Shown: positions 1-21,798 of the stretch, one piece after another | Position numbering within the stretch: position 1 is the stretch's first letter | Layout of the letters: the number at the start of each line of letters is the position of its first letter | Assembly: GCA_031291595.1 (NCBI GenBank) | Contig: JARLIU010000029.1 | Coordinates: forward strand, 1 to 44,908 | DNA: 44,908 nt | Source of the DNA: Ancalomicrobiaceae bacterium | GTDB taxonomy: Bacteria; Pseudomonadota; Alphaproteobacteria; Rhizobiales; Ancalomicrobiaceae | Direction: 5' to 3' | Made by a program: the position numbers and the translations under genes | The notes under the pieces: model-generated | What the model was told of the DNA's origin: nothing | The model's database searches: none | The model's input: the letters and a program-made list of their open reading frames with translations, nothing else

Positions 1-156
1 GACGGCGACGGACGTACTCTTCATCCTGATCCACCGACCAGCCTCCAGCACGGCTGCCGGCACCAGTGCCGGATCAGTCCACGGCGAAACTGGGCGAGAC
101 GACTGCATCAGACAAGGCGGCCGTCACCGGAGGGATACGAAAGAACGGACGCATTT

Positions 157-900
157 TTGCCTGTAGATACGTTGTTTTATTCTGGAGAACGTGCACGAAG
201 CTTTCCAGAAATCGAATCTTTCGAACATAACGATCTTAAATTCATACTTTCGCATATTGATCATCGGCTAAAATTCATGCGGGATCAGGGATTTCTGAAA
301 GAGTGTAGCGATAAAGAAGGACGTGAAATAGAAATTGAGGAAATGTTGACCGCGTTTAACTCTGCGTGGAGCGCGGTTGAGAGCTTTGCAAGAATGCCCA
401 CAAAATGGGGGTGGGCGCTGTTGCAAATAAACTCCGACATTGCTCTCGCGATGAACGGGCACGCGCCTCAATTCATTATACCAAAACCTTATATCGGTAC
501 AAAGACAAGCAGTCATAAACATAAAGAACTGCGGATGAGAACTTCATACGCAGTGGCATGTCTAATAACGCGCGGCCTGAGTCGAGACGATGCGTGCGTG
601 AGAGTTGCCGGCGCTCTTGCGGGCATGCACGCAACTACAAATAAAAACGGACGACCTCTCAGCTCCAGAACGATACGCGGATGGTATCTGGACCTGAAGC
701 GAAAGGTGGAAGGGAAAGAAAATCTGGAATTGAAAATAGAAAATATGAATGATGATGGGTATAAGTTCGTTCGATGGATAAAGATGGATATTGAGGACTT
801 CGACTCAAAAGGTAAGGGTCCTGATCACAAGGGGTTTCTAGGCGTTTCGCCGATTGAGTGCCTCAAAAGGATGGTAGAACACTTGTTGCCCATAGTTTGA
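157..900 (+). CDS. Hypothetical protein, AT-rich cargo gene
   Basis: I do not recognise this 247-residue protein. It has no signal peptide or membrane segment. The middle (about residues 120-190) is basic and helical, with the segment RGLSRDDACVRVAGAL followed by SSRTIRGWYLDLKRK, which resembles a helix-turn-helix DNA-binding arrangement, but this is only an impression. The gene is clearly richer in A and T than the DNA on both sides and uses AAA, GAA and ATA freely, which suggests recent transfer. The start given is a TTG at 157. The reading frame stays open leftward to base 1, so the real start may lie outside the window, but the composition changes sharply near base 140 and the upstream translation does not look like protein. 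It sits just before an excisionase-like gene in what appears to be an integrated element. Confidence 0.55.
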   Translation: MPVDTLFYSGERARSFPEIESFEHNDLKFILSHIDHRLKFMRDQGFLKECSDKEGREIEIEEMLTAFNSAWSAVESFARMPTKWGWALLQINSDIALAMNGHAPQFIIPKPYIGTKTSSHKHKELRMRTSYAVACLITRGLSRDDACVRVAGALAGMHATTNKNGRPLSSRTIRGWYLDLKRKVEGKENLELKIENMNDDGYKFVRWIKMDIEDFDSKGKGPDHKGFLGVSPIECLKRMVEHLLPIV

Positions 901-916
901 TTGATCCCGTACCCCT

Positions 917-950
917 GTTGGACAAAAACAGCCTGTCGAAAATGTCCAAC
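917..950. repeat. 8-bp perfect inverted repeat upstream of the excisionase-like gene
   Basis: GTTGGACA at 917-924 is repeated in inverted form as TGTCCAAC at 943-950, with 18 bases between. It lies in the short gap between the AT-rich gene and the operon beginning at 1017. The left arm also contains a -35-like TTGGACA. It could be an operator for the AlpA-like regulator or a transcription stop for the upstream gene. There is no T-run, so an operator or recombination-protein site is slightly preferred. Confidence 0.4.
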
Positions 951-1016
951 GATCCATGGCGATCTCTAGGTTAGCTGCGGACGGATGCGTGTCCGCTGCT
1001 GAACCGGAGATTGTTC

Positions 1017-1211
1017 ATGCAAGCGACCGCAAATTCCGAGCCCCTCTCCTATCGCGTTGATGATGCCTGCCGTGCTCTTGGTATCGGCCGTACGACGCTG
1101 TATGGCCTGATTGCTTGCGGCCAACTGAAGGCGATCAAGATTGCGGGCCGCACCCTCATACCGCGCTCGGAAATTGAACGTCTTGTAGCTGAGGCTATGG
1201 CCGATGCATGA
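1017..1211 (+). CDS. AlpA/excisionase-family helix-turn-helix DNA-binding protein
   Basis: This small protein (64 residues from the ATG at 1017) has the excisionase/AlpA-type winged helix-turn-helix. VDDACRALGIGRTTLYGLI forms the first helices and recognition helix, and KIAGRTLIPRSEIERLV is the wing and closing helix. Such proteins act as recombination directionality factors or as regulators of an element's integrase and replication genes. GGAGA at 1005-1009 is well placed for the ATG at 1017; an in-frame TTG at 1011 would be too close to it. The last 8 bases overlap the next gene, so it heads a translationally coupled replication operon. The family assignment is firm. Whether it promotes excision or controls transcription is inference. 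Confidence 0.8.
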   Translation: MQATANSEPLSYRVDDACRALGIGRTTLYGLIACGQLKAIKIAGRTLIPRSEIERLVAEAMADA

Positions 1212-1530
1212 CGGACGCCAATCCCTCGATTTCACTGCGATCAACGCTGCCGTCTTGGCTGTCGCCGGTCCTGTCCTTTTCCGCCTTGCTCCCGGTGGCA
1301 CCGTCCAGGCCGGCGAGTATGTCGCTCTCAACCCCCGCCGTGCGGATCATCGGCTCGGCTCGTTCCGCGTCAACATGCGGACCGGCCGCTGGGCTGATTT
1401 CGCCACGGGCGATCGTGGCGGCGACATCATTTCCTACGCGGCTTACGCCTGGAACTGCTCGCAGGTTGAGGCTGCCCGCGCCCTTGCCCGCATGATCGGC
1501 ATCGAGATCGGGGCGCGCGCCCATGGCTGA
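1204..1530 (+). CDS. Primase N-terminal (CHC2-like, zinc-less) domain protein
   Basis: The 108-residue product resembles the front domain of element-encoded primases. GSFRVNMRTGRWADFATGD, then GGDIISYAAYAWNCSQVEAARALARMIGI, is the pattern usually found after the zinc ribbon of DnaG/P4-type primases, where template is recognised. Only one cysteine is present, so the classical zinc ligands are absent. It overlaps the upstream regulator gene and the downstream TOPRIM-helicase gene by 8 bases each, which argues that the two products work together as a split primase. It begins at the ATG at 1204. The other overlapping frames here are shadows. The match is by motif memory, so the domain name is moderately certain and the role as primase accessory is inferred. 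Confidence 0.68.
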   Translation: MHDGRQSLDFTAINAAVLAVAGPVLFRLAPGGTVQAGEYVALNPRRADHRLGSFRVNMRTGRWADFATGDRGGDIISYAAYAWNCSQVEAARALARMIGIEIGARAHG

Positions 1531-4012
1531 AGTCGCGCTCGACCTCTGTGCCCCGCTTACGGACGATGAGAAGGCGACAGCGGCACCAATCGCTGCTGCC
1601 GAGCCCCAGATCGAAATCATCATGCCCGTGCCTTCCAACGCGCCGTCGCCGTCGTTTCGGCACGTGCGACATGGTGAGTCTTCTGCGGTTTGGACGTACC
1701 GCGATGCCGACGGGGCCGCGCTGCTGCACGTCTGCCGTTACAACAAGCCTGACGGCGGCAAGGAGTTCGCGCCGCGCGCCTGGGGGCGGCTGCCGACCGG
1801 GGCGACCGCCTGGTACTGGAAGATGCCGCCGGCCAATCGGCCGCTCTACGGACTCGACAGGCTCGCCAAAAGCCCTTCTGCCTCAGTCGTCATCTGCGAG
1901 GGTGAAAAGGCGACGGATGCGGCCGCAAAGGTCTTTCTGAAGTCGGTCACCATGTGCTGGGCGGGCGGCTCGAACGCGGTGGCGAAGACCGATTTCTCGC
2001 CGCTCGCCGGTCGCAAGGTGCTGCTCTGGCCGGACAACGACGGGCCCGGCCTGAAGGCCATGGAGCAAGTCGCCAGCATCCTTGCCGACCTCAATTGCGA
2101 GGTGAGCGCCATCGATTCGTCGAAAGCGGCGGCAATGGTTCCGGACCAACTGGAAACCCAGCGCGAGCCCGTGGCGACGTGGGATGCTGCGGATGCGGTA
2201 GCAGAATGGTCGAAACTGGGCGAATTGCGCAAGGCGCTCTTTGGTCTGGCCGAGCGCAAAGAGGCACCAGCGAAATATCTCTCCTTCGACGACTTCCGGA
2301 TGTCCGCCGATGGTCTGACGGTGACTGCCGTCAAAGGGCGCGGCGACACCGCCAAAGAGGTTGAGGAGTGGGTTTCGGCCGCGTTCGAAATCATCGGCCG
2401 GGTTCGTGATCCTGAAAGCAACGGCTGGGCCAAGCTTCTGCGCTGGCAGGACGAGGACGGCAAGACGCATTCGCACTCGGTGGCAGATGCGTTGGTGCAT
2501 GGCGATGCAAAGGTGTTCGTCAGTGAGTTGGCCTCGCGCGGCCTCAACATTCGCCGTGGAGGTGGTTCGCAGCTTGCCGACTATCTGAATCGCGCGAAGG
2601 TCGATCGGCGAGTGACGACGGTCGGGCGGACCGGCTGGCACGAAGTGGGCGGCAAGCAGGTGTTTGTGCTGCCGGCTGAGACGATCGGCTCGTCTGCCGC
2701 CGAAACTGTCATTTTGGCGGGGGCGAATTCGGCGCCATTCGAGGCAAAGGGCTACTTGTCCGGCTGGCAGGCTGGCGTCGGCGCGCTCGTTCAGAATCAC
2801 CACCGCCATGTCTTTGCAGTCGCCTCAGCCTTCGCAGGGCCGCTATTGGCACTGGTGAAACAAGATGGCGGTGGGTTCAACTTCCACGGCGGCTCGTCCA
2901 CCGGCAAAAGCACGGCTATCGAGGCCGCAGCGAGTGTGTGGGGGCGTGGTTCGTCGCCGGGCTATGTCCGGTCGTGGCGGGCGACAGCCAACGCCATTGA
3001 GGCTGCCGCTGCACTTCACACCGATACCGCGCTCGTGCTCGATGAATTGGGCGTGGTTGACGCCAGAGAGGCCGGCGCGGCCGCCTATCAGTTGGCCGCC
3101 GGGTCAGGCAAAGGCCGGTCGGCGCGGGACGGTTCGTTGCGAACGCCGCTGACGTGGCGAACGTTGATCCTGTCGACTGGTGAGATCCGGCTTGCGGACA
3201 AGCTCACTGAAGGCAAGCAACGTGCGATGGCTGGGCAAGCGGTTCGGTTGGTTGATATCCCCGCCGATGCTGGCAAGGGTTTCGGGTCGTTTGATCACAG
3301 CGGCCCAACCGGCAATGCAAAGGACATCGCCGACAGCATCAAGCGGGCGGCGCGAACGGCTTACGGCACGGCAGGACCGGAGTTCGTCCGGCGATTGATT
3401 TCCGAAGGGCTGGAGGAAGTGTCGAGCTTGGCGCTGGGGAGTGTGGACGCCTTCCGGTCAACGATGGTTCCGCGCGGCGCTGACGGACAGGTACAGCGCG
3501 CCGCCGATCGGTTTGGGTTGGTTGCCGCAGCCGGTGAGATCGCAGCATCGCTTGGCGTCGTGCCATGGCCGGCCGGGTCGGCGAAGCGGGCCGCCGAAGT
3601 ATGTTTCCTGGCCTGGATGGAGTCTCGCGGGGGGTCGGAAGCACATGAGGTGCGCGAAGCGGTCGAGCGGGTTCGGGCATTTGTCCAAGCCCATGGCGAC
3701 AGCCGCTTCGAACCGCTGCCGAAAATGCTCGAATCCCGGCCTATCCCAAATCGCGTCGGATACCGCCGTGGAGAGGGCGGCGATCGCGAGTGGTTGATTT
3801 TTCCGGAGGCATGGAAAGCCGAAGTCGTCGCCGGGCTCGATCCGAAGGCAGCGGCGAGCGCGCTTTCCGATCGCTGCATGTTGCGACGTGCCAACGACGG
3901 TTTCCAGCGGGTTGAAAAGATCGATGGAAAGCCGACGCGATTCTATGTCGTGACCGCGGAAATCTTGACCAGCCAACCGACGGGAGAGCTCCATGTCGCG
4001 GCTGAAAGCTGA
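1523..4012 (+). CDS. TOPRIM-DUF927 primase/helicase of a mobile element
   Basis: This 829-residue protein has two recognisable halves. The N-terminal part carries a TOPRIM-like domain: the acidic motif ICEGEKATDAA with Glu126, then LLWPDNDGPG with Asp171 and Asp173, expected to bind metal for primer synthesis. The C-terminal part is a DUF927-type helicase ATPase with Walker A GGSSTGKST at residues 456-464 and Walker B LVLDE with Asp507-Glu508. Proteins of this type drive replication of phage satellites and integrated plasmids. The start is the ATG at 1523, overlapping the previous gene by 8 bases. The stop lies 20 bases inside the next gene, so expression is coupled. GC content is like the chromosome, suggesting an old resident of this group of bacteria. 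Confidence 0.88.
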   Translation: MAEVALDLCAPLTDDEKATAAPIAAAEPQIEIIMPVPSNAPSPSFRHVRHGESSAVWTYRDADGAALLHVCRYNKPDGGKEFAPRAWGRLPTGATAWYWKMPPANRPLYGLDRLAKSPSASVVICEGEKATDAAAKVFLKSVTMCWAGGSNAVAKTDFSPLAGRKVLLWPDNDGPGLKAMEQVASILADLNCEVSAIDSSKAAAMVPDQLETQREPVATWDAADAVAEWSKLGELRKALFGLAERKEAPAKYLSFDDFRMSADGLTVTAVKGRGDTAKEVEEWVSAAFEIIGRVRDPESNGWAKLLRWQDEDGKTHSHSVADALVHGDAKVFVSELASRGLNIRRGGGSQLADYLNRAKVDRRVTTVGRTGWHEVGGKQVFVLPAETIGSSAAETVILAGANSAPFEAKGYLSGWQAGVGALVQNHHRHVFAVASAFAGPLLALVKQDGGGFNFHGGSSTGKSTAIEAAASVWGRGSSPGYVRSWRATANAIEAAAALHTDTALVLDELGVVDAREAGAAAYQLAAGSGKGRSARDGSLRTPLTWRTLILSTGEIRLADKLTEGKQRAMAGQAVRLVDIPADAGKGFGSFDHSGPTGNAKDIADSIKRAARTAYGTAGPEFVRRLISEGLEEVSSLALGSVDAFRSTMVPRGADGQVQRAADRFGLVAAAGEIAASLGVVPWPAGSAKRAAEVCFLAWMESRGGSEAHEVREAVERVRAFVQAHGDSRFEPLPKMLESRPIPNRVGYRRGEGGDREWLIFPEAWKAEVVAGLDPKAAASALSDRCMLRRANDGFQRVEKIDGKPTRFYVVTAEILTSQPTGELHVAAES

Positions 4013-4550
4013 TCTCGAAAAGGTCTGGGGGCCTCTGCCGGGAATTGGCGTAACGGGCGTAACAGGCGTAACCGCACACTCGGTTACGCCAAGAAAACCC
4101 AATGGTTACAATGGTTACACCGGTTACGCCTCAAATTCAGTGATCGCCGAATGCGGTGAGATCAAACCCGTAACCGAAAGAGAACCTGTCGGCAACGACG
4201 ACGGCGAGGACATCGAACGGGCCGCCATCATTGAATTCGATGGGGGTAGGCCCGGCGCTCTTGCTGACGCCTTCGCCGCGATGGAGGCCCGTTGCCCGGA
4301 CGGGGCCGGATCCGAAAGATGGTCTCAGGCAATCGATGATGCCGGGCGTCTGTTGGACCGTTGGGGCGCGACGCTGACGGGGCTCGGATGGAACACCGCC
4401 GACATCTTCGAATGGAGGCCGGTCGGATGCTGCGGTTTGGCGTGGGAAATGACCGGCCGCGACGTTCTTGCCGTCACCGATACCGGCGCCGCGCTGGGGC
4501 CGGATGTTCGGACTGAATGGGCGTGGTTTGCCCGGCACACAACAAGATAG
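3993..4550 (+). CDS. Hypothetical protein with repeat-encoded GVT/NGY tract
   Basis: The 185-residue product is of unknown function. Residues 19-27 are three GVT repeats, and residues 38-46 are three NGY/TGY repeats, both produced by a 9-bp DNA repeat array (4047-4130). The rest is acidic and soluble, with AIDDAGRLLDRWGATLTGLGW and a C-terminal stretch containing GCCGLAWEM and GRDVLAVTDTGA. No known catalytic motif is visible. It begins 20 bases before the end of the primase/helicase gene, so it is the fourth member of the operon. Similar short proteins with VTGVTGVT runs next to DUF927 genes are something I recall from other elements, but I cannot verify it. The repeat content suggests the DNA is the conserved object and the peptide follows from it. 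Confidence 0.6.
   Translation: MSRLKADLEKVWGPLPGIGVTGVTGVTAHSVTPRKPNGYNGYTGYASNSVIAECGEIKPVTEREPVGNDDGEDIERAAIIEFDGGRPGALADAFAAMEARCPDGAGSERWSQAIDDAGRLLDRWGATLTGLGWNTADIFEWRPVGCCGLAWEMTGRDVLAVTDTGAALGPDVRTEWAWFARHTTR
4047..4130. repeat. Iteron-like array: 9-bp direct repeats and their inverted copies
   Basis: GGCGTAAC occurs at 4047-4054, 4056-4063 and 4065-4072, exactly 9 bases apart. Its reverse complement GTTACGCC occurs at 4083-4090 and 4123-4130, and the related GGTTACAAT and GGTTACACC fill 4104-4112 and 4113-4121, again on a 9-base period. A further GTAACC lies at 4170-4175. The array therefore has three forward and four reverse units around a short A-rich centre (aagaaaaccc at 4091-4100). 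It lies directly after the primase/helicase gene. This geometry fits an origin bound by a replication protein or a strong regulatory site. Function is inferred. Confidence 0.7.
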
Positions 4551-4597
4551 TCCGTGACCTATCCTTACAATTTTGCTTCGCATTTTCAGAGGAAACC

Positions 4598-5227
4598 ATG
4601 ACCGAAACAGCGAATTGCAATGAAAAGGCACGGCCGGCGCTCCCGTCAGTTGCCGGTCAGGACGATGGTCGCGCCATAGCCAAGAAAAGTGTGAAGGCAA
4701 TTCCTCGCATTTCTATCAATCAGAACGGCGATAGCTTCCAAATACAAATTGGCAAAAGCGACTCTGTCGGCGAAAATTTTGAACTGATGCAAGCCCTGGG
4801 GACGACGGATCTCGCATTCTATAACGGCCTTCTCAATAGCATCCTGAATGCAGCAAAAGAGGGCGGAAAGGTTGCCGACCAGGGCGCCAACTTCATTGCG
4901 TCGGTGGTCGCCGGCATCGAACCGCGAGACCAACTTGAAGCTATGCTCGCGGTCCAAATGGCCGCGATCCATAATGCGACAATCGCCACGGCGCGCCACT
5001 TCACGCATGCCAAGACACTACAGCAGCTTGAAGTGCAAGAACGCGCCTTGAATAAGCTCGCCAGAACGTTCACCACGCAGATTGAAGCATTGAAACGATA
5101 TCGCAGCAGCGGCCAGCAAAAGGTCACGGTTGAACATGTCACTGTTAATGCTGGCGGGCAGGCAATCGTCGGAACCGTCGAACACCCTGGGGGAGGTGGG
5201 TCGAAAAGTGGGGGAACGACCCCATGA
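4598..5227 (+). CDS. Conserved-looking hypothetical protein of the element
   Basis: This soluble 209-residue protein has no recognised function. The centre (about residues 60-175) is helical with heptad-like Leu/Ala spacing, including a long segment ending QLEVQERALNKLARTFTTQIEALKRYR that could form a coiled coil. A short conserved-looking tail, KVTVEHVTVNAGGQAIVG, is followed by a Gly-rich end. I recall VxVEHVxVxxGGQAIVG tails in small proteins of alphaproteobacterial integrated elements, without a known role. The start at 4598 is chosen because AGAGGA at 4588-4593 precedes the ATG; the frame is open back to 4517 but that part reads poorly. The stop overlaps the next ATG by 4 bases (ATGA). 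Confidence 0.65.
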   Translation: MTETANCNEKARPALPSVAGQDDGRAIAKKSVKAIPRISINQNGDSFQIQIGKSDSVGENFELMQALGTTDLAFYNGLLNSILNAAKEGGKVADQGANFIASVVAGIEPRDQLEAMLAVQMAAIHNATIATARHFTHAKTLQQLEVQERALNKLARTFTTQIEALKRYRSSGQQKVTVEHVTVNAGGQAIVGTVEHPGGGGSKSGGTTP

Positions 5228-5478
5228 GCCGTTTGGACGCTGCTCGGAATTCGGCACGCTGTTCCGCTCGATCAAAGCGGACAGGTGAGCACTGCAAAGG
5301 CCCGGCTGTTCGCGGGTGGCGCGTCTGTCGATTCCATGGCGCCCGTGGTGGTGGTCCGACGGGACTTGCCAATGGCAACTACCGGCATGGAGAGTTCACG
5401 GCTGAAGCGATCGAAACGCGGCACGTGATAGCTGAACTCATTCGCGCGACGCGCGAGACGTTGGACGATCTTCCATAG
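5224..5478 (+). CDS. Small Cys/His-rich 'HGARGGG' protein
   Basis: The 84-residue protein has Cys13, Cys24, Cys35 and His38 in the pattern RCSARSKRTGEHCKGPAVRGWRVCRFHGARGGGP, which looks like a small zinc-binding fold, followed by a short helical tail. Proteins with this CKxPAVxGxxxCRxHGA signature are common, unassigned residents of phages and integrated elements. They often sit beside terminase or replication genes; that statement is from memory. It starts inside the stop of the previous gene (ATGA overlap), making it the last gene of the operon running from 1017. A DNA-binding or packaging role is possible but unproven. Confidence 0.68.
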   Translation: MSRLDAARNSARCSARSKRTGEHCKGPAVRGWRVCRFHGARGGGPTGLANGNYRHGEFTAEAIETRHVIAELIRATRETLDDLP

Positions 5479-5695
5479 GTTTTAATCGAAGATGCCGGAT
5501 CTGCACGACGGCAACAGATGGTTCGGTCGACGGTTGCTACTGACCGTGCGGCATCGTCGGGATTTGTTACTAGGTGGACCAATCAGGGTAGGCAGTAAGC
5601 ACCCTCCACACGCGCGCGACGTGGTTACCACCAGGTTGGCAGCCAACGCTCCGTATTCGAGAGCATTGGAATGCGTACTGACAAGGGTGTCTAGG

Positions 5696-6103
5696 CTAGA
5701 CCAAACAGGTTTTTATAATATTAGACTGGGCAGGGGAAATATCAAGACTTATCAAGGCACAATCTTGGACAAGACGAAGCATAGTATTGTCTATTGTGCA
5801 TACCGGTTTAACCTTGCCATCATACGCCTTTTTGAGCATTTTTGTGGGGCTCAGTTCATAAAATTCATCCAAACACACCCATGTTGCCTTCTTCAAATAG
5901 CAAGATCCGGGCGGCAGAAAGAAATTGTGAAACCGATCGGAAGGTTGGCACCCAAAAATAACGCCTCTTCCGTGCTGTTGCGAAGTGGTTTTGGTAACAA
6001 CGGAAACAGGCCCAACAGTTCCAACAACTAAGAAAAGCTTCTCTCCGCTCTCACCGTCATGAAAGGCAAAATCCTCATCGAAAAATATAGATCCAGGATT
6101 CAC
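5696..6103 (-). CDS. Putative toxin partner of the Panacea antitoxin
   Basis: The 135-residue protein is unrecognised. It begins PGSIFFDEDFAFHDGESGEKLFLVVG, which loosely recalls the first strands of the PemK/MazF RNase fold (a G-D-I-hydrophobic start, a gap, then a K-hydrophobic strand), and continues FFLPPGSCYLKKATWVCLDEFYELS. No catalytic residues can be assigned with confidence. Its GTG start overlaps the stop of the Panacea gene by 4 bases (GTGA), and both are AT-rich against GC-rich surroundings. Panacea antitoxins are known to pair with many unrelated toxins encoded next to them, so a toxin or anti-phage effector role is inferred from context. The stop is at 5696. The opposite-strand frame over the same bases is treated as a shadow. 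Confidence 0.5.
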   Translation of the reverse strand: MNPGSIFFDEDFAFHDGESGEKLFLVVGTVGPVSVVTKTTSQQHGRGVIFGCQPSDRFHNFFLPPGSCYLKKATWVCLDEFYELSPTKMLKKAYDGKVKPVCTIDNTMLRLVQDCALISLDISPAQSNIIKTCLV

Positions 6104-6651
6104 CTTAGCTTCTCCATAATCTCCTCTCTTGCTTCAGAGATTTTCATAACATAATCCCTTTCATCATTTCTGATCGCCAGACTATACGGGATCTCTTTTT
6201 GTTTCTTCCCTTCCTTATTATACACCCTATCCCACGGAAGATTTTCAAGATGGGTAGCTTCGATCATACTTTCAGCGTCAGTATCTCGATATTCTTCAGC
6301 GAGATTCTTCATAATCATCATTTCCCTCTTGGTAAAATGATGTCCTGAAAAATCTACTTTAGGCGTAATAGCCAGCATCCAGTTCTCTTTGAGCGCGCGC
6401 TTTTCAATCTGAAAGGCATCGCTCAGGTCAGAGGGCGGGTTGTCAATTTCGTTGTAAAGGTCAACCGGGACGGGACCCTTCGGCCATGCGTAATACGTCA
6501 GGCCAGTGACATTTCTGCCCGTCAGCTTGTAATGCTCGAAATCTAGGAAATAAAGCAGTTTGAATAGCTTTATCTTTCCAAACTTTCTTGTATTTCTAGC
6601 GAAAAAATTGATTGCTTGAATCAACTTCTCGCGCTCATGCGTGATAAGCAT
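6100..6651 (-). CDS. Panacea-domain (SocA-like, DUF4065) antitoxin
   Basis: The 183-residue product matches the Panacea/SocA antitoxin fold. It has an N-terminal helical part with INFFARNTRKFGKIKLFKLLYFLDFEHYKLTGRNVTGLTYYAWPKGPVP, which contains the family's characteristic K-L-x-K-L-L-Y-F-x-D-x-x-H and YxAWxxGPVP motifs, and a later helical region. SocA of Caulobacter is a proteolytic adaptor antitoxin, and other Panacea proteins neutralise diverse toxins by direct binding. The start at 6651 (MLITHEREKL) is chosen because the family begins there; the open frame extends to 6762 but reads as junk. It precedes and overlaps the toxin candidate. The AT-rich composition marks it as acquired cargo. 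Confidence 0.82.
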   Translation of the reverse strand: MLITHEREKLIQAINFFARNTRKFGKIKLFKLLYFLDFEHYKLTGRNVTGLTYYAWPKGPVPVDLYNEIDNPPSDLSDAFQIEKRALKENWMLAITPKVDFSGHHFTKREMMIMKNLAEEYRDTDAESMIEATHLENLPWDRVYNKEGKKQKEIPYSLAIRNDERDYVMKISEAREEIMEKLR

Positions 6652-7147
6652 TCGAGCAATCCCTCTAGTGGGCGGCCTGCACTCCGAATCATACACGTAG
6701 CCCGGCGCAATAGGCGAGCAAAAATGACCCGTCGTGCGCCAACTCAATATGTAGGTCGGCAATATGTTTCAATTTCGTTCCTAAAATGCCACACGAACTC
6801 GCCCCGCACCTTCTGTGCCAGCTGCGTGATGATCCCGGCCCGTAGACCGCGTAGCGGAAGCGTTGCGAAGGGCACTCATTTGGTGCGCACCTCAACTCAC
6901 GCGAGGGCGGGAGCGCGCGCCAGTTGGCGCAAGATTGTTCTCACTCAAAAAAGTTGGAACGGAGTCTTCCGGTCGCCACCGTGCGCCGTCTGAGAATACG
7001 GCCAAGCCCGGCTTCACTTTCGCGCGGAATTCGCCTTCGTCCATCCAAATTCGCGCCTATCCGCCGCAGAGTGGTGGATGAAATGGTGGGTTAATGAAGC
7101 TGCCATTTGTAAAAGGCTTTGAACTTCAATGCCTTCGTTGGAGGAGT
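6652..7147. other. Gene-poor stretch between the Panacea gene and tRNA-Ala
   Basis: About 500 bases without a convincing gene. On the minus strand a 50-codon frame from the ATG at 7044 to 6892 begins MDEGEFRAKVKPGLAVFSDG, and a 43-codon frame from the GTG at 6875 to 6744 ends RGEFVWHFRNEIETYCRPTY. Both look more protein-like than chance in part but match nothing I know; they may be gene remnants left at the element edge. No integrase remnant is recognisable. The promoter of the antitoxin-toxin unit should lie in the left part. Confidence 0.4.
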
Positions 7148-7223
<76 letters not shown>

Positions 7224-7639
7224 ACGTCAGCATGATCACCAAGGTGATCAGTCCGAAACTTGCCCTCGAAGTTTCCGGCCGATGCTGGGCCCAAGGCCCA
7301 AATCAACCGACAAACCATCCCGTTGGCGGGGCGTTGGGGCGCCCCCCGTGTTGGGCGCATGCTTTAAGCCGAACCGCGATTGGGATCAAGTGGCTTTGTC
7401 GGATGCGTCGCAAATTCTTCATCGCGCAGCAATCGTGTTGGGGAAAACGACACCGGCCGGCTCCGAATGACGCTCGGACCGGCGCAAATATCGGCTGAAA
7501 TGGCCGATTCGGCCCGGGATCGGCAAACCGTCCCCCGGCCCCTGCGCCATCCGCGGCGTTGCGCCCGAGGCACCAAAAGTCCCCCGGCGGGGCGAACCGT
7601 CGACCAGACGAGGCGCCCGCCGCGCGGGCGCCATGGCGA
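7224..7639. other. Non-coding stretch between tRNA-Ala and the TIGR02300 gene
   Basis: No convincing gene is seen in these roughly 415 bases. Several short frames exist on both strands but have no protein character. The region should contain the tRNA promoter (right of 7223) and the terminator of the minus-strand gene that ends at 7640. I see no clear hairpin with a T-run. Confidence 0.5.
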
Positions 7640-8014
7640 TCACGGCTCTTCGTCCTCGCCGGCAACGTCGATATCGATGCCGTCGATATCGTCGTCCTCC
7701 TCGTCGGGCGCCAGGAACGTATCGTCATCGTCGCCGCCGATATCCTCGATCTCCTCGTCCTCGATGCCCGGCACCTCGGCCTCACCGGATTCCTCGGCGT
7801 CGGCCTCTTCGAGCGAGACGAAATCGACCGGCAACGCCTCGACCGTCTCTTCCTCTTCCTCGGCCACCGGTACGACCTTGGTGCGCATGGCCATGGCGGC
7901 CACCGTGAACGGCGTGCCGCACTTCGGACAGAGAATCGGATCCCGGTTGAGATCGTAGTACTTGGTGCTGCAGCTCGGGCAGAGCCGCTTAATTCCGAGC
8001 TCGGGTTTTGCCAC
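7640..8014 (-). CDS. TIGR02300 family protein (FYDLN acidic protein)
   Basis: This 124-residue protein belongs to the TIGR02300 family of alphaproteobacteria. The first third is a zinc-ribbon: Cys12, Cys15, Cys29 and Cys32 around KYYDLNRDPILCPKCG, with YYDLN in place of the more usual FYDLN. From about residue 50 onward it is extremely acidic, nearly all Glu and Asp, ending GEDEEP. Function is unknown in the family. Its place between tRNA-Ala and aroA is a conserved Rhizobiales arrangement. It starts with GTG at 8014, preceded by a GGCGAGG-like ribosome site, and a good sigma-70-type promoter lies just upstream. Confidence 0.88.
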   Translation of the reverse strand: MAKPELGIKRLCPSCSTKYYDLNRDPILCPKCGTPFTVAAMAMRTKVVPVAEEEEETVEALPVDFVSLEEADAEESGEAEVPGIEDEEIEDIGGDDDDTFLAPDEEDDDIDGIDIDVAGEDEEP

Positions 8015-19909: not shown

Positions 19910-21798
19910 GACCTGCCTCCGGTCTTGGCGGCCTTGGCGGCATCCCACCACCAGATCGTCGGCAGGCCGGTGGAATATTTCGGCAGCGGATCGGGATGCG
20001 AGAAGCGGTCCCAGCGCGCGATGCGGATCGCGGGCAGCGTCCAGCCGGGAATGACGTAGTGGTTCCACAACAGCAGCCGGTCGAGCGCCTTGGTGGCGGC
20101 AACGAGATCGTCGCGGCCCTTGTTGTAGATGATCTCGTGGATGACGAAGTCGACCGCTGGATTCTTGATGCCGCCGTAGTTTTTCGAGCCATCGCGGTCG
20201 GCGGATGCCGAGCCGAAGTACTCCTGCTGCTCGTTGCCCGGCGAAAGCGACTCAGCCCAGCCGGAGACGATCATGTCGAAGTCACGCTTGATCACCCGGT
20301 TGATGTATTGCGAGGTATCGACCTGACGGATGCCGAGATCGATGCCGACGGCGGCGAGCGCCGCCTTGTAGGGCAGCGCCACGCGTTCGAACAGCGGCGA
20401 GGAGATCAGCAGCTCGAACCTCATCGGCTCTCTGGTCTTGGCGTTGACCAGCCGGCCGCCGTCGATCACCCAGCCGGCCGCATTGAGGAGCTTCAGCGCC
20501 TCACGCTGGTTGGCGCGCTTCAAGGTCGGGTTGCCGCCGACCGGGTTCTTGAACGGAGTGGTGAACACCTCGGCCGGAACTGGTCCCTTCTCCTTCGCCG
20601 CCTGGAGGATTTCCAGTTCGCGACCTTCCGGCAGGCCGCGCGACATCAGCTCGGTCGGATAGAAGTAGCTGTCGACATGCTCGTACTGGCCGAAGAAGAT
20701 GGTGCGGTTGATTTCCTCGAAATCGAACAGATAGCTGAGCGCCAAGCGCACGCGGTCGTCGTTGAACGGGGACCGGCGCAGATTCATGACGAAGCCGCTC
20801 ATCGCGCCCGAGGCCCGCTCGGGGAATTTTTCCAGGATGATGCGGCCGTCGGCTTTGGCCGGGATATCGTAGGCGGTCGCCCAGTTCTTGGCCGAAGACT
20901 CCGACCGGAAGTCGAAATTGTCGCCTTTGAACGCTTCGAGTTCGACTGAATCGTCGCGGTAGATGTCGTAGCGGATCTCGTCGAAATTGTTGGTGCCGAT
21001 GGCGAACGGCTGGTTCGCCGCCCAATAGTCCTTGACCCGTTCGTACGTGATGGTCTTTCCGGCTTCGAACGACTTGATCTTGTACGGGCCGGAGCCGAGC
21101 GGCGGCTCGAGCGTCGTCCTGGTGATGTCGCGCGGCTGTCCGTCGGCACCATTCGCCGTCCACCAGTGCTTGGGCAGGATGCGGAGTTCGCCGACGATCT
21201 GCGGCAGTTCGCGGTTGCCGCTCTGGTCGAAGCTGAAGGTGACCTCGTGCGGACCGGTCGCTTCGGCCTTCTTCACATGCGAATAGTAGAACTGCTGCTG
21301 CGGATCGTTGGCGGTCTGCACTTCGAACGACCACACCACGTCTTCCGGGGTGATCGGCTCGCCGTCTTGCCAGCGCGCATCGGGGCGCAAGCGGAAAGTC
21401 ACCGAAGAATAGTCGTCAGGGTATTTCAATGCCTCGGCGATGTCGCCGTATTCGCTCGATATTTCGTCGAGCGAAGCGGTCATCAGCCGTTCGTAGATCA
21501 GGTCGGCGCCCGGCGCGATATTGCCTTTGACCGAGGTGAGTACGATGTTGAAATTGTCGAAGCCGCTGCTGTCGCCTAGTCTGAGCGTGCCGCCCTTCGG
21601 GGCATTCACGTTGACATAATCGAAATGCTTGTAGTCGGCGGGATACTTCAACGGACCGATGAGCGAGACGCCGTGCCGCCATTGCGGCTCATCGGCGGTG
21701 GCAGGCGTTTGCGCGACCAACGACAGGCCGACGACGGCGATCGCCACGCCGACAGCAATCCGGCGCCAGGCGGACAGGGGCTTGAGATCTTTCATCAA
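19906..21798 (-). CDS. yejA: Extracellular solute-binding protein, YejA-like, first copy (Sec signal)
   Basis: This 630-residue family 5 solute-binding protein is the first gene of the yej operon. The leader (AWRRIAVGVAIAVVGLSLVAQTPATADEP) is a Sec-type signal peptide. The mature start RHGVSLIGPLKYPADYKHFDYVNVNAPKGG matches YejA proteins, which bind oligopeptides and microcin C-like compounds. The segment DVVWSFEVQTAN and the closing WWWDAAKAAKTGG are also typical. The start is ATG at 21798 (a second ATG follows directly). The last bases overlap the start of the second copy, so both binding proteins are made together. Confidence 0.93.
   Translation of the reverse strand: MMKDLKPLSAWRRIAVGVAIAVVGLSLVAQTPATADEPQWRHGVSLIGPLKYPADYKHFDYVNVNAPKGGTLRLGDSSGFDNFNIVLTSVKGNIAPGADLIYERLMTASLDEISSEYGDIAEALKYPDDYSSVTFRLRPDARWQDGEPITPEDVVWSFEVQTANDPQQQFYYSHVKKAEATGPHEVTFSFDQSGNRELPQIVGELRILPKHWWTANGADGQPRDITRTTLEPPLGSGPYKIKSFEAGKTITYERVKDYWAANQPFAIGTNNFDEIRYDIYRDDSVELEAFKGDNFDFRSESSAKNWATAYDIPAKADGRIILEKFPERASGAMSGFVMNLRRSPFNDDRVRLALSYLFDFEEINRTIFFGQYEHVDSYFYPTELMSRGLPEGRELEILQAAKEKGPVPAEVFTTPFKNPVGGNPTLKRANQREALKLLNAAGWVIDGGRLVNAKTREPMRFELLISSPLFERVALPYKAALAAVGIDLGIRQVDTSQYINRVIKRDFDMIVSGWAESLSPGNEQQEYFGSASADRDGSKNYGGIKNPAVDFVIHEIIYNKGRDDLVAATKALDRLLLWNHYVIPGWTLPAIRIARWDRFSHPDPLPKYSTGLPTIWWWDAAKAAKTGGRS

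Follow-up and report, generated by a model that had tools for sequence, protein, structure and literature searches.

The window, by which we mean the whole 44,908-nucleotide stretch of DNA analysed here, carries a gene for a TOPRIM-DUF927 helicase and, overlapping its end, an open reading frame (ORF) in which sets of short iteron-like units lie in opposite orientations. The features of the locus are listed below in window coordinates.

1020-1211, + strand: small HTH_17 protein, excisionase/AlpA-like (Pfam 1.3e-11; phrog_66 4.8e-6)
1204-1530, + strand: zinc-finger ORF, possible primase part (weak DnaG-type CHC2 match, Pfam 0.0025, below the cut-off)
1523-4012, + strand: TOPRIM-DUF927 helicase of 829 aa, candidate initiator (Pfam DUF927 2e-72; Toprim_3 below the cut-off; phmmer matches to 5dgk and 8tch; fold)
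3635-3985, + strand: C-terminal winged-helix region of the helicase, proposed reader of the units (converted from model residues 448-564)
3993-4550, + strand: ORF of 185 aa containing the array in its N-terminal part, with an ERAAI-type domain downstream
4047-4054, 4056-4063 and 4065-4072, + strand: three forward units GGCGTAAC, 9-bp period
4083-4090, - strand: first inverted unit GTTACGCC, in another frame than the remaining inverted units
4090-4103, no strand: A/T-rich core CAAGAAAACCCAAT, putative melting site (AT 0.64, against 0.36 across the helicase gene)
4104-4130, - strand: three inverted units, 9-bp period (GGTTAC at 4104-4109 and 4113-4118; GTTACGCC at 4123-4130)
4170-4175, + strand: outlying short copy GTAACC
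7148-7223, - strand: tRNA-Ala, candidate for the integration site and the right-hand end of the element (ARAGORN, Rfam)

The candidate initiator is a Cch/SaPI-Rep-type AAA+ helicase, matched by phmmer to SCC Cch (5dgk, 9.8e-15) and SaPIbov1 Rep (8tch, 2.5e-13). Its predicted model (mean pLDDT 90.2) gave a fold Z of 31.7 to 5dgk, the closest solved structure, and 27.7 to 8tch. The model also predicts a C-terminal winged-helix DNA-binding domain, with residues 448-564 matching 5vfy, a relaxosome protein with a winged helix (Z 11.0, 96 residues, 3.3 A). A search of genome contigs with the full helicase returned no relative. The element, whose left end lies off the contig, is not classed as a PICI; an HTH_17 gene and a candidate tRNA end are seen, AlpA itself was not matched by the HTH_17 protein in Pfam or PHROGs, and no convincing copy of a second tRNA-Ala end was found in the same genome. 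ARAGORN also called a tRNA-Ala at 2818-2895 inside the helicase gene; the call has no support from Rfam and is probably false. A SocA/Panacea antitoxin-like gene (6100-6762, minus strand, Pfam 2.1e-20) adjoins the ORF at 5696-6103, perhaps as a toxin-antitoxin pair.

The array begins 35 bp past the helicase stop (4012). The preliminary description had placed forward and inverted repeats at 4047-4130, and three forward and four inverted copies are present there. Its statement that every unit keeps an exact 9-bp period holds for the two 9-bp runs, both of which were detected by TRF, but not for the first inverted copy, which lies 22 bp before the next. The inverted copies had been read as encoding NGY/TGY, whereas the first is in another frame (GGTTACGCC encodes VTP at 4082 and, within the one ORF, GYA at 4122); nor are the repeats confined to the range given, the short copy at 4170-4175 being an eighth. 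The window array is small, and its 14-bp A/T-rich core falls between the first and second inverted copies, not between the opposite sets. Within the 500 bp surrounding the helicase stop, no exact 7-mer occurs more than 5 times, a count that 0 of 100 dinucleotide shuffles attained, and across the whole window a count of at least 5 was found in 4 of 445 overlapping 500-bp frames, all four of which contain the array. The tandem 17-mer GGCGTAACNGGCGTAAC occurs in its own genome (a 5.25 Mb draft in 319 contigs) at the array site only, as two overlapping matches; across 397 genomes it was found in 5, against 8 for the reversed control, and is therefore not above the control.

To place the array in its family, DUF927 helicases were searched for in 297 genomes of the host's order (27 matched) and 385 genomes of the class (22 matched), a strong locus being one with E<1e-35 and an array being at least five copies of one 7-mer within the 500 bp around the helicase stop. 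Places without a locus identifier were left out, as was L164, whose gene is cut by the contig end. An array is present at 22 of the 35 strong loci. Of the weak loci 1 in 22 has one, and 554 control windows taken from the loci surveyed have none. In viral contigs (the best 80 of 180 relatives) they occurred at 55 of 80 loci, against 11 of 1818 control windows. Genomes, viral contigs and three plasmids together gave 118 strong loci; 81 show five or more copies of an element-specific 7-mer just 3' of the gene and 37 show fewer. Removal of near-identical arrays left 53 non-redundant arrays with 43 different 7-mers, and both orientations are present in 51 of them. The first copy lies a median of 43 bp past the helicase stop, and the largest gap within the array has an A/T content of 0.546, against 0.451 in the 200 bp past the array and 0.414 at the end of the helicase gene (n=52). 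An A/T-rich stretch flanked by iteron sets is clearer in this average than in the window. The window array is one case of a pattern 3' of DUF927 helicase genes.

Three plasmids, circular pMNOD05 and pSR-7 and linear pCECT9189-4, have no evident initiator gene other than DUF927 in their PLSDB gene tables, and on each of them an array adjoins it. The 20.3 kb pMNOD05 (L272) has 13 exact copies of GGTGTGAC, 12 of which form two arrays with an identical unit and mirrored steps of 9-9-45-21-21; one array is inside an annotated gene and the other is in no listed gene, in a gene table known to be incomplete. The second array (19924-20036) is separated from the first by about 1.9 kb that span the start of the record, and is possibly a second origin or an incompatibility site. 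GC skew gave no clear origin mark on pMNOD05. The 9.8 kb pCECT9189-4 (L275) encodes a protelomerase and has a large GTGTAAC array at 3188-3482 beside its DUF927 gene. On pMaqPC2 (L276) the nearest array is about 1.1 kb downstream of the DUF927 gene, and no array was found at the DUF927 gene of pTAO100, which also has RepM. The 38 kb record of pMaqPC2 appears to be two copies in tandem of a sequence of about 19.4 kb.

The protein encoded by the array-bearing ORF has no Pfam or PHROGs match. Relatives were matched in 9 of the 297 genomes of the host's order, through the domain downstream of the array. The units in those relatives that also follow a replication helicase are TTGCGAC (L003), a CGGTAC type (L021/L004) and GTGGGGAC (L016/L008), the L003 array adjoining a DUF3987 helicase, not a DUF927 one; the weaker homologues L005, L006, L007 and L011 have no such array beside the match. 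Copies in the same orientation fall in more than one frame of a single ORF in the window, L015, L016, L017, L025, L163, L174, L176 and others, though not in L042 or L028. On a strict count that disregards stray outer copies (as in L173), 14 of the 53 arrays have no open forward frame, and 11 of these are closed in all six frames. In the window, all three forward units use GTA for valine, against 3% of 90 nearby valine codons. The unit GGCGTAAC is retained in L316, a DUF927 element from a different genus within the same bacterial family, but there it is flipped and in another layout.

Closely related loci separate the unit from its surroundings. The viral contigs L217, L244 and L211 have near-identical geometry, with a unit that differs in register. 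L244 and L211 agree in 42 of 42 unit columns and in 37 of 63 spacer columns. L217 and L244 share 111 of 131 columns 3' of the array, and because third codon positions hold 12 of the 15 differences in this tail, the gene tail is read as protein. In the paralogues L182 and L188, one identical base change is found in all five copies of the unit, with matched spacing.

DNA rather than peptide looks to be under selection, as the preliminary description had argued, and the multi-frame copies, the closed-frame arrays, the pMNOD05 pair and the flipped L316 unit all support this. Among the relatives with the same unit, which are few, none was met in which different codons encode the GVT/NGY peptide, the contrary case that had been named in advance. 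The same description had also linked the 9-bp period to preservation of the frame. A step of three codons does allow such an array to sit within a gene, but the frame does not explain the period. The 9-bp step makes up 133 of 228 same-orientation steps, and among steps of at most 25 bp it accounts for 32 of 60 in forward-closed arrays and 101 of 147 in open arrays, with 25 of 51 in arrays closed in all six frames. As it is the commonest step in closed-frame arrays too, the period is a property of the array rather than of the coding.

Spacings between copies in opposite orientation gather near 22, 32, 43 and 54 bp. The vector strength of 138 such spacings peaks at 0.48 for a period of 10.75-11 bp, against a null 95% level of 0.165, and none of 5000 draws was as high, a strength overstated to some degree because related arrays were counted as independent. 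Phasing of opposite copies at about 10.75 bp suggests assembly of protein on one face of the duplex.

Three other explanations of the array were weighed. It could be a protein-level repeat, in which 9-bp slippage expanded a low-complexity GVT/GY peptide and produced the DNA pattern only as a side effect; the three-codon step and the open ORF are compatible with this, slippage would account for the identical codons, and pure GVT-type peptide repeats do exist in collagen-like phage proteins. Simple slippage does not produce inverted and multi-frame copies, however, and the arrays closed in all forward frames, the matching pMNOD05 array outside any listed gene and the different units in relatives of the ORF leave this explanation highly improbable. 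An equally slight chance is given to a regulatory RNA or terminator, in which the inverted sets would form a hairpin in the operon transcript. The segment 4040-4135 does fold with -43.5 kcal/mol (z -5.88), a stability reached by 0 of 200 shuffles, but any inverted array folds well, the helical phasing of opposite copies points to a protein on duplex DNA, and a search of window positions 1-8000 found no Rfam family other than tRNA, with none at the array.

That the array binds a protein for some other purpose, as a partition centromere, a transfer origin or an operator bound by the HTH_17 protein, is improbable, if a little less so. Tandem operator-like units would fit these functions, there is the resemblance of the C-terminal winged helix to the relaxosome protein 5vfy, and ParA is encoded on pSR-7 and pMaqPC2. 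Set against this, the published PICI origin occupies the equivalent place (PMC6092414), ParA lies kilobases away on both plasmids, and the arrays are at the 3' end of the helicase gene in the 81 of 118 loci described above.

Rep_3/RepA-type iteron plasmids resemble the window in having repeated initiator sites, but the window initiator is an AAA+ helicase; the iterons of such plasmids are longer and mostly one-directional. SaPI origins lie directly 3' of rep and consist of short iterons recognised by the Rep C-terminal domain (Ubeda et al. 2007, as cited in PMC7581432). SaPIs and Gram-positive PICIs share with the window a homologous self-loading helicase (8tch) and an origin just 3' of the helicase gene, whereas the window array is inside the next gene with units in several frames; for SaPI the comparison is with the published description. 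The SCCmec helicases Cch and Cch2 are similar through homology to Cch (5dgk), and the C-terminal domain of Cch2 binds repeats that lie 3' of the gene for Cch2 (PMC7581432). The origin described there is that of Cch2; it is intergenic and has 5-nt iterons.

Gram-negative PICIs have iteron sets around A/T-rich DNA 3' of rep or pri-rep, and the EcCICFT073 rep-ori is reported to have replicated a plasmid in DH5alpha (both from PMC6092414). The CFT073 element with capsid and decoration genes, which we infer to be EcCICFT073, was taken as a positive control: 3' of its pri-rep, GGTAGA occurs 11 times with steps of 9/46/22/11/9/31/11/22/46/9. With its steps of 9, 11, 22, 31 and 46 bp this array is close to those described here, but the helicase is of the D5_N/DUF5906 type, not DUF927, and the origin is between annotated genes. 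Iteron origins inside genes are already known from lambda, where four 18-bp iterons inside gene O are bound by the product of O itself beside an A/T-rich stretch (PMC3349717). The window shares iterons in coding sequence near an A/T-rich stretch, but its array is past the helicase stop at 4012, in the ORF 3993-4550, and hence not in the gene of its own initiator. What is new is that the array is embedded in a downstream gene, that units turn over while the geometry stays, and that the pattern is broad. No description of coding-embedded arrays of this kind was found in searches of an open-licence literature library.

We consider it very probable that the array serves an integrated mobile element as its origin of replication, a rep-ori of the SaPI/PICI/SCC type that is read by the helicase winged helix and embedded in the next gene. 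The earlier suggestion of a candidate origin within an ORF is thereby supported as the best reading, because helicases of the Cch/SaPI-Rep type precede the arrays, both on small plasmids and on island-like elements, and because a PICI rep-ori that is reported to work has a similar layout. Helicase binding, melting, replication and subunit-to-unit contacts we infer as follows. The DUF927 helicase, as an MCM-like AAA+ ring, would bind the 8-bp units via its C-terminal winged helix, the 9-bp spacing would hold adjacent helicase subunits, and the inverted sets would point helicase assemblies at each other. Nearby A/T-rich DNA would then melt and be unwound, with priming by the TOPRIM and zinc-finger parts of the element or by the host. 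Selection would act to preserve the units in the DNA together with their helical geometry, and the gene would keep its open frame and C-terminal domain. The origin may extend over the beginning of the next gene because this part of the encoded protein can accept changes.

The units are likely to be read by the helicase winged helix; the general correspondence between unit and C-terminal domain is weak. Most helicase blocks of L217 and L244 are 80-92% identical, but the last two full blocks only 64% and 36%, while those of L244 and L211 are still 92-94% identical, so that in this trio the C-terminal part follows the unit. After removal of near-identical helicases (81 reduced to 54), a partial Mantel test of unit against C-terminal domain gave r 0.089, with 47 of 2000 permutations as high, and the same test against the helicase core gave no such signal. 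No difference was seen below 50% core identity. The viral helicase alignment used 48 of 65 usable sequences, drawn from the best 80 of 180. Two loci run counter to the trend: L247 has the unit of L244, yet is 56-66% identical in the last blocks, and L316 has the unit of the window, yet is 37-42% identical there.

A two-layer code may be at work, a tentative proposal to which we give somewhat less than even weight. DUF927 helicases, and probably DUF3987 helicases, would have an exchangeable C-terminal address domain, and when it changes, all units of the origin would be rewritten to fit, while the geometry (9-bp steps, with inverted pairs at multiples of about 10.75 bp), and where coding the frame and tail of the host gene, would be kept. 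If this is true, replicon identity groups would diversify inside protein-coding DNA, and a joint change of helicase tail and unit would show how new replicon compatibility groups originate. The overlap of DNA docking geometry with protein sequence is a natural one between two codes, and their conflict is measurable. For the islands, satellites and small plasmids of proteobacteria that form this large and poorly described group, the locus also offers an origin and an initiator that can be tested. Origins in other elements may be found by a simple rule: look for a bidirectional array of 7-8-mers immediately 3' of the gene for a DUF927 or DUF3987 helicase.

Loci were also collected by unit. Among 117 loci with TTGCGAC triple arrays in genome contigs there was no DUF927-type ORF. 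An ORF of at least 250 aa ends within 500 bp upstream in 71 of them, and among these 71 ORFs DUF3987 is the commonest family (17); the other 46 loci have no such ORF. In the mirrored control, 50 of the 117 loci had an ORF at their 5' side, so position beside an ORF is by itself weak evidence. TTGCGAC arrays beside DUF3987 helicases (L003, L050, L068, L091, L113 and L120) show a like architecture in a second helicase family. Twenty-three viral contigs with a GGCGTAAC triple also lack a DUF927-type ORF, and several are collagen-like GVT repeats in one orientation only; the unit alone is therefore not diagnostic. In L286, L291, L294, L303 and others, the triples are in repetitive VT-rich phage proteins, some collagen-like, in a single orientation. 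The viral contigs L288, L289, L295, L296, L298, L302 and L307 have an inverted GGCGTAAC array with steps of 9-9-45 and no DUF927-type ORF.
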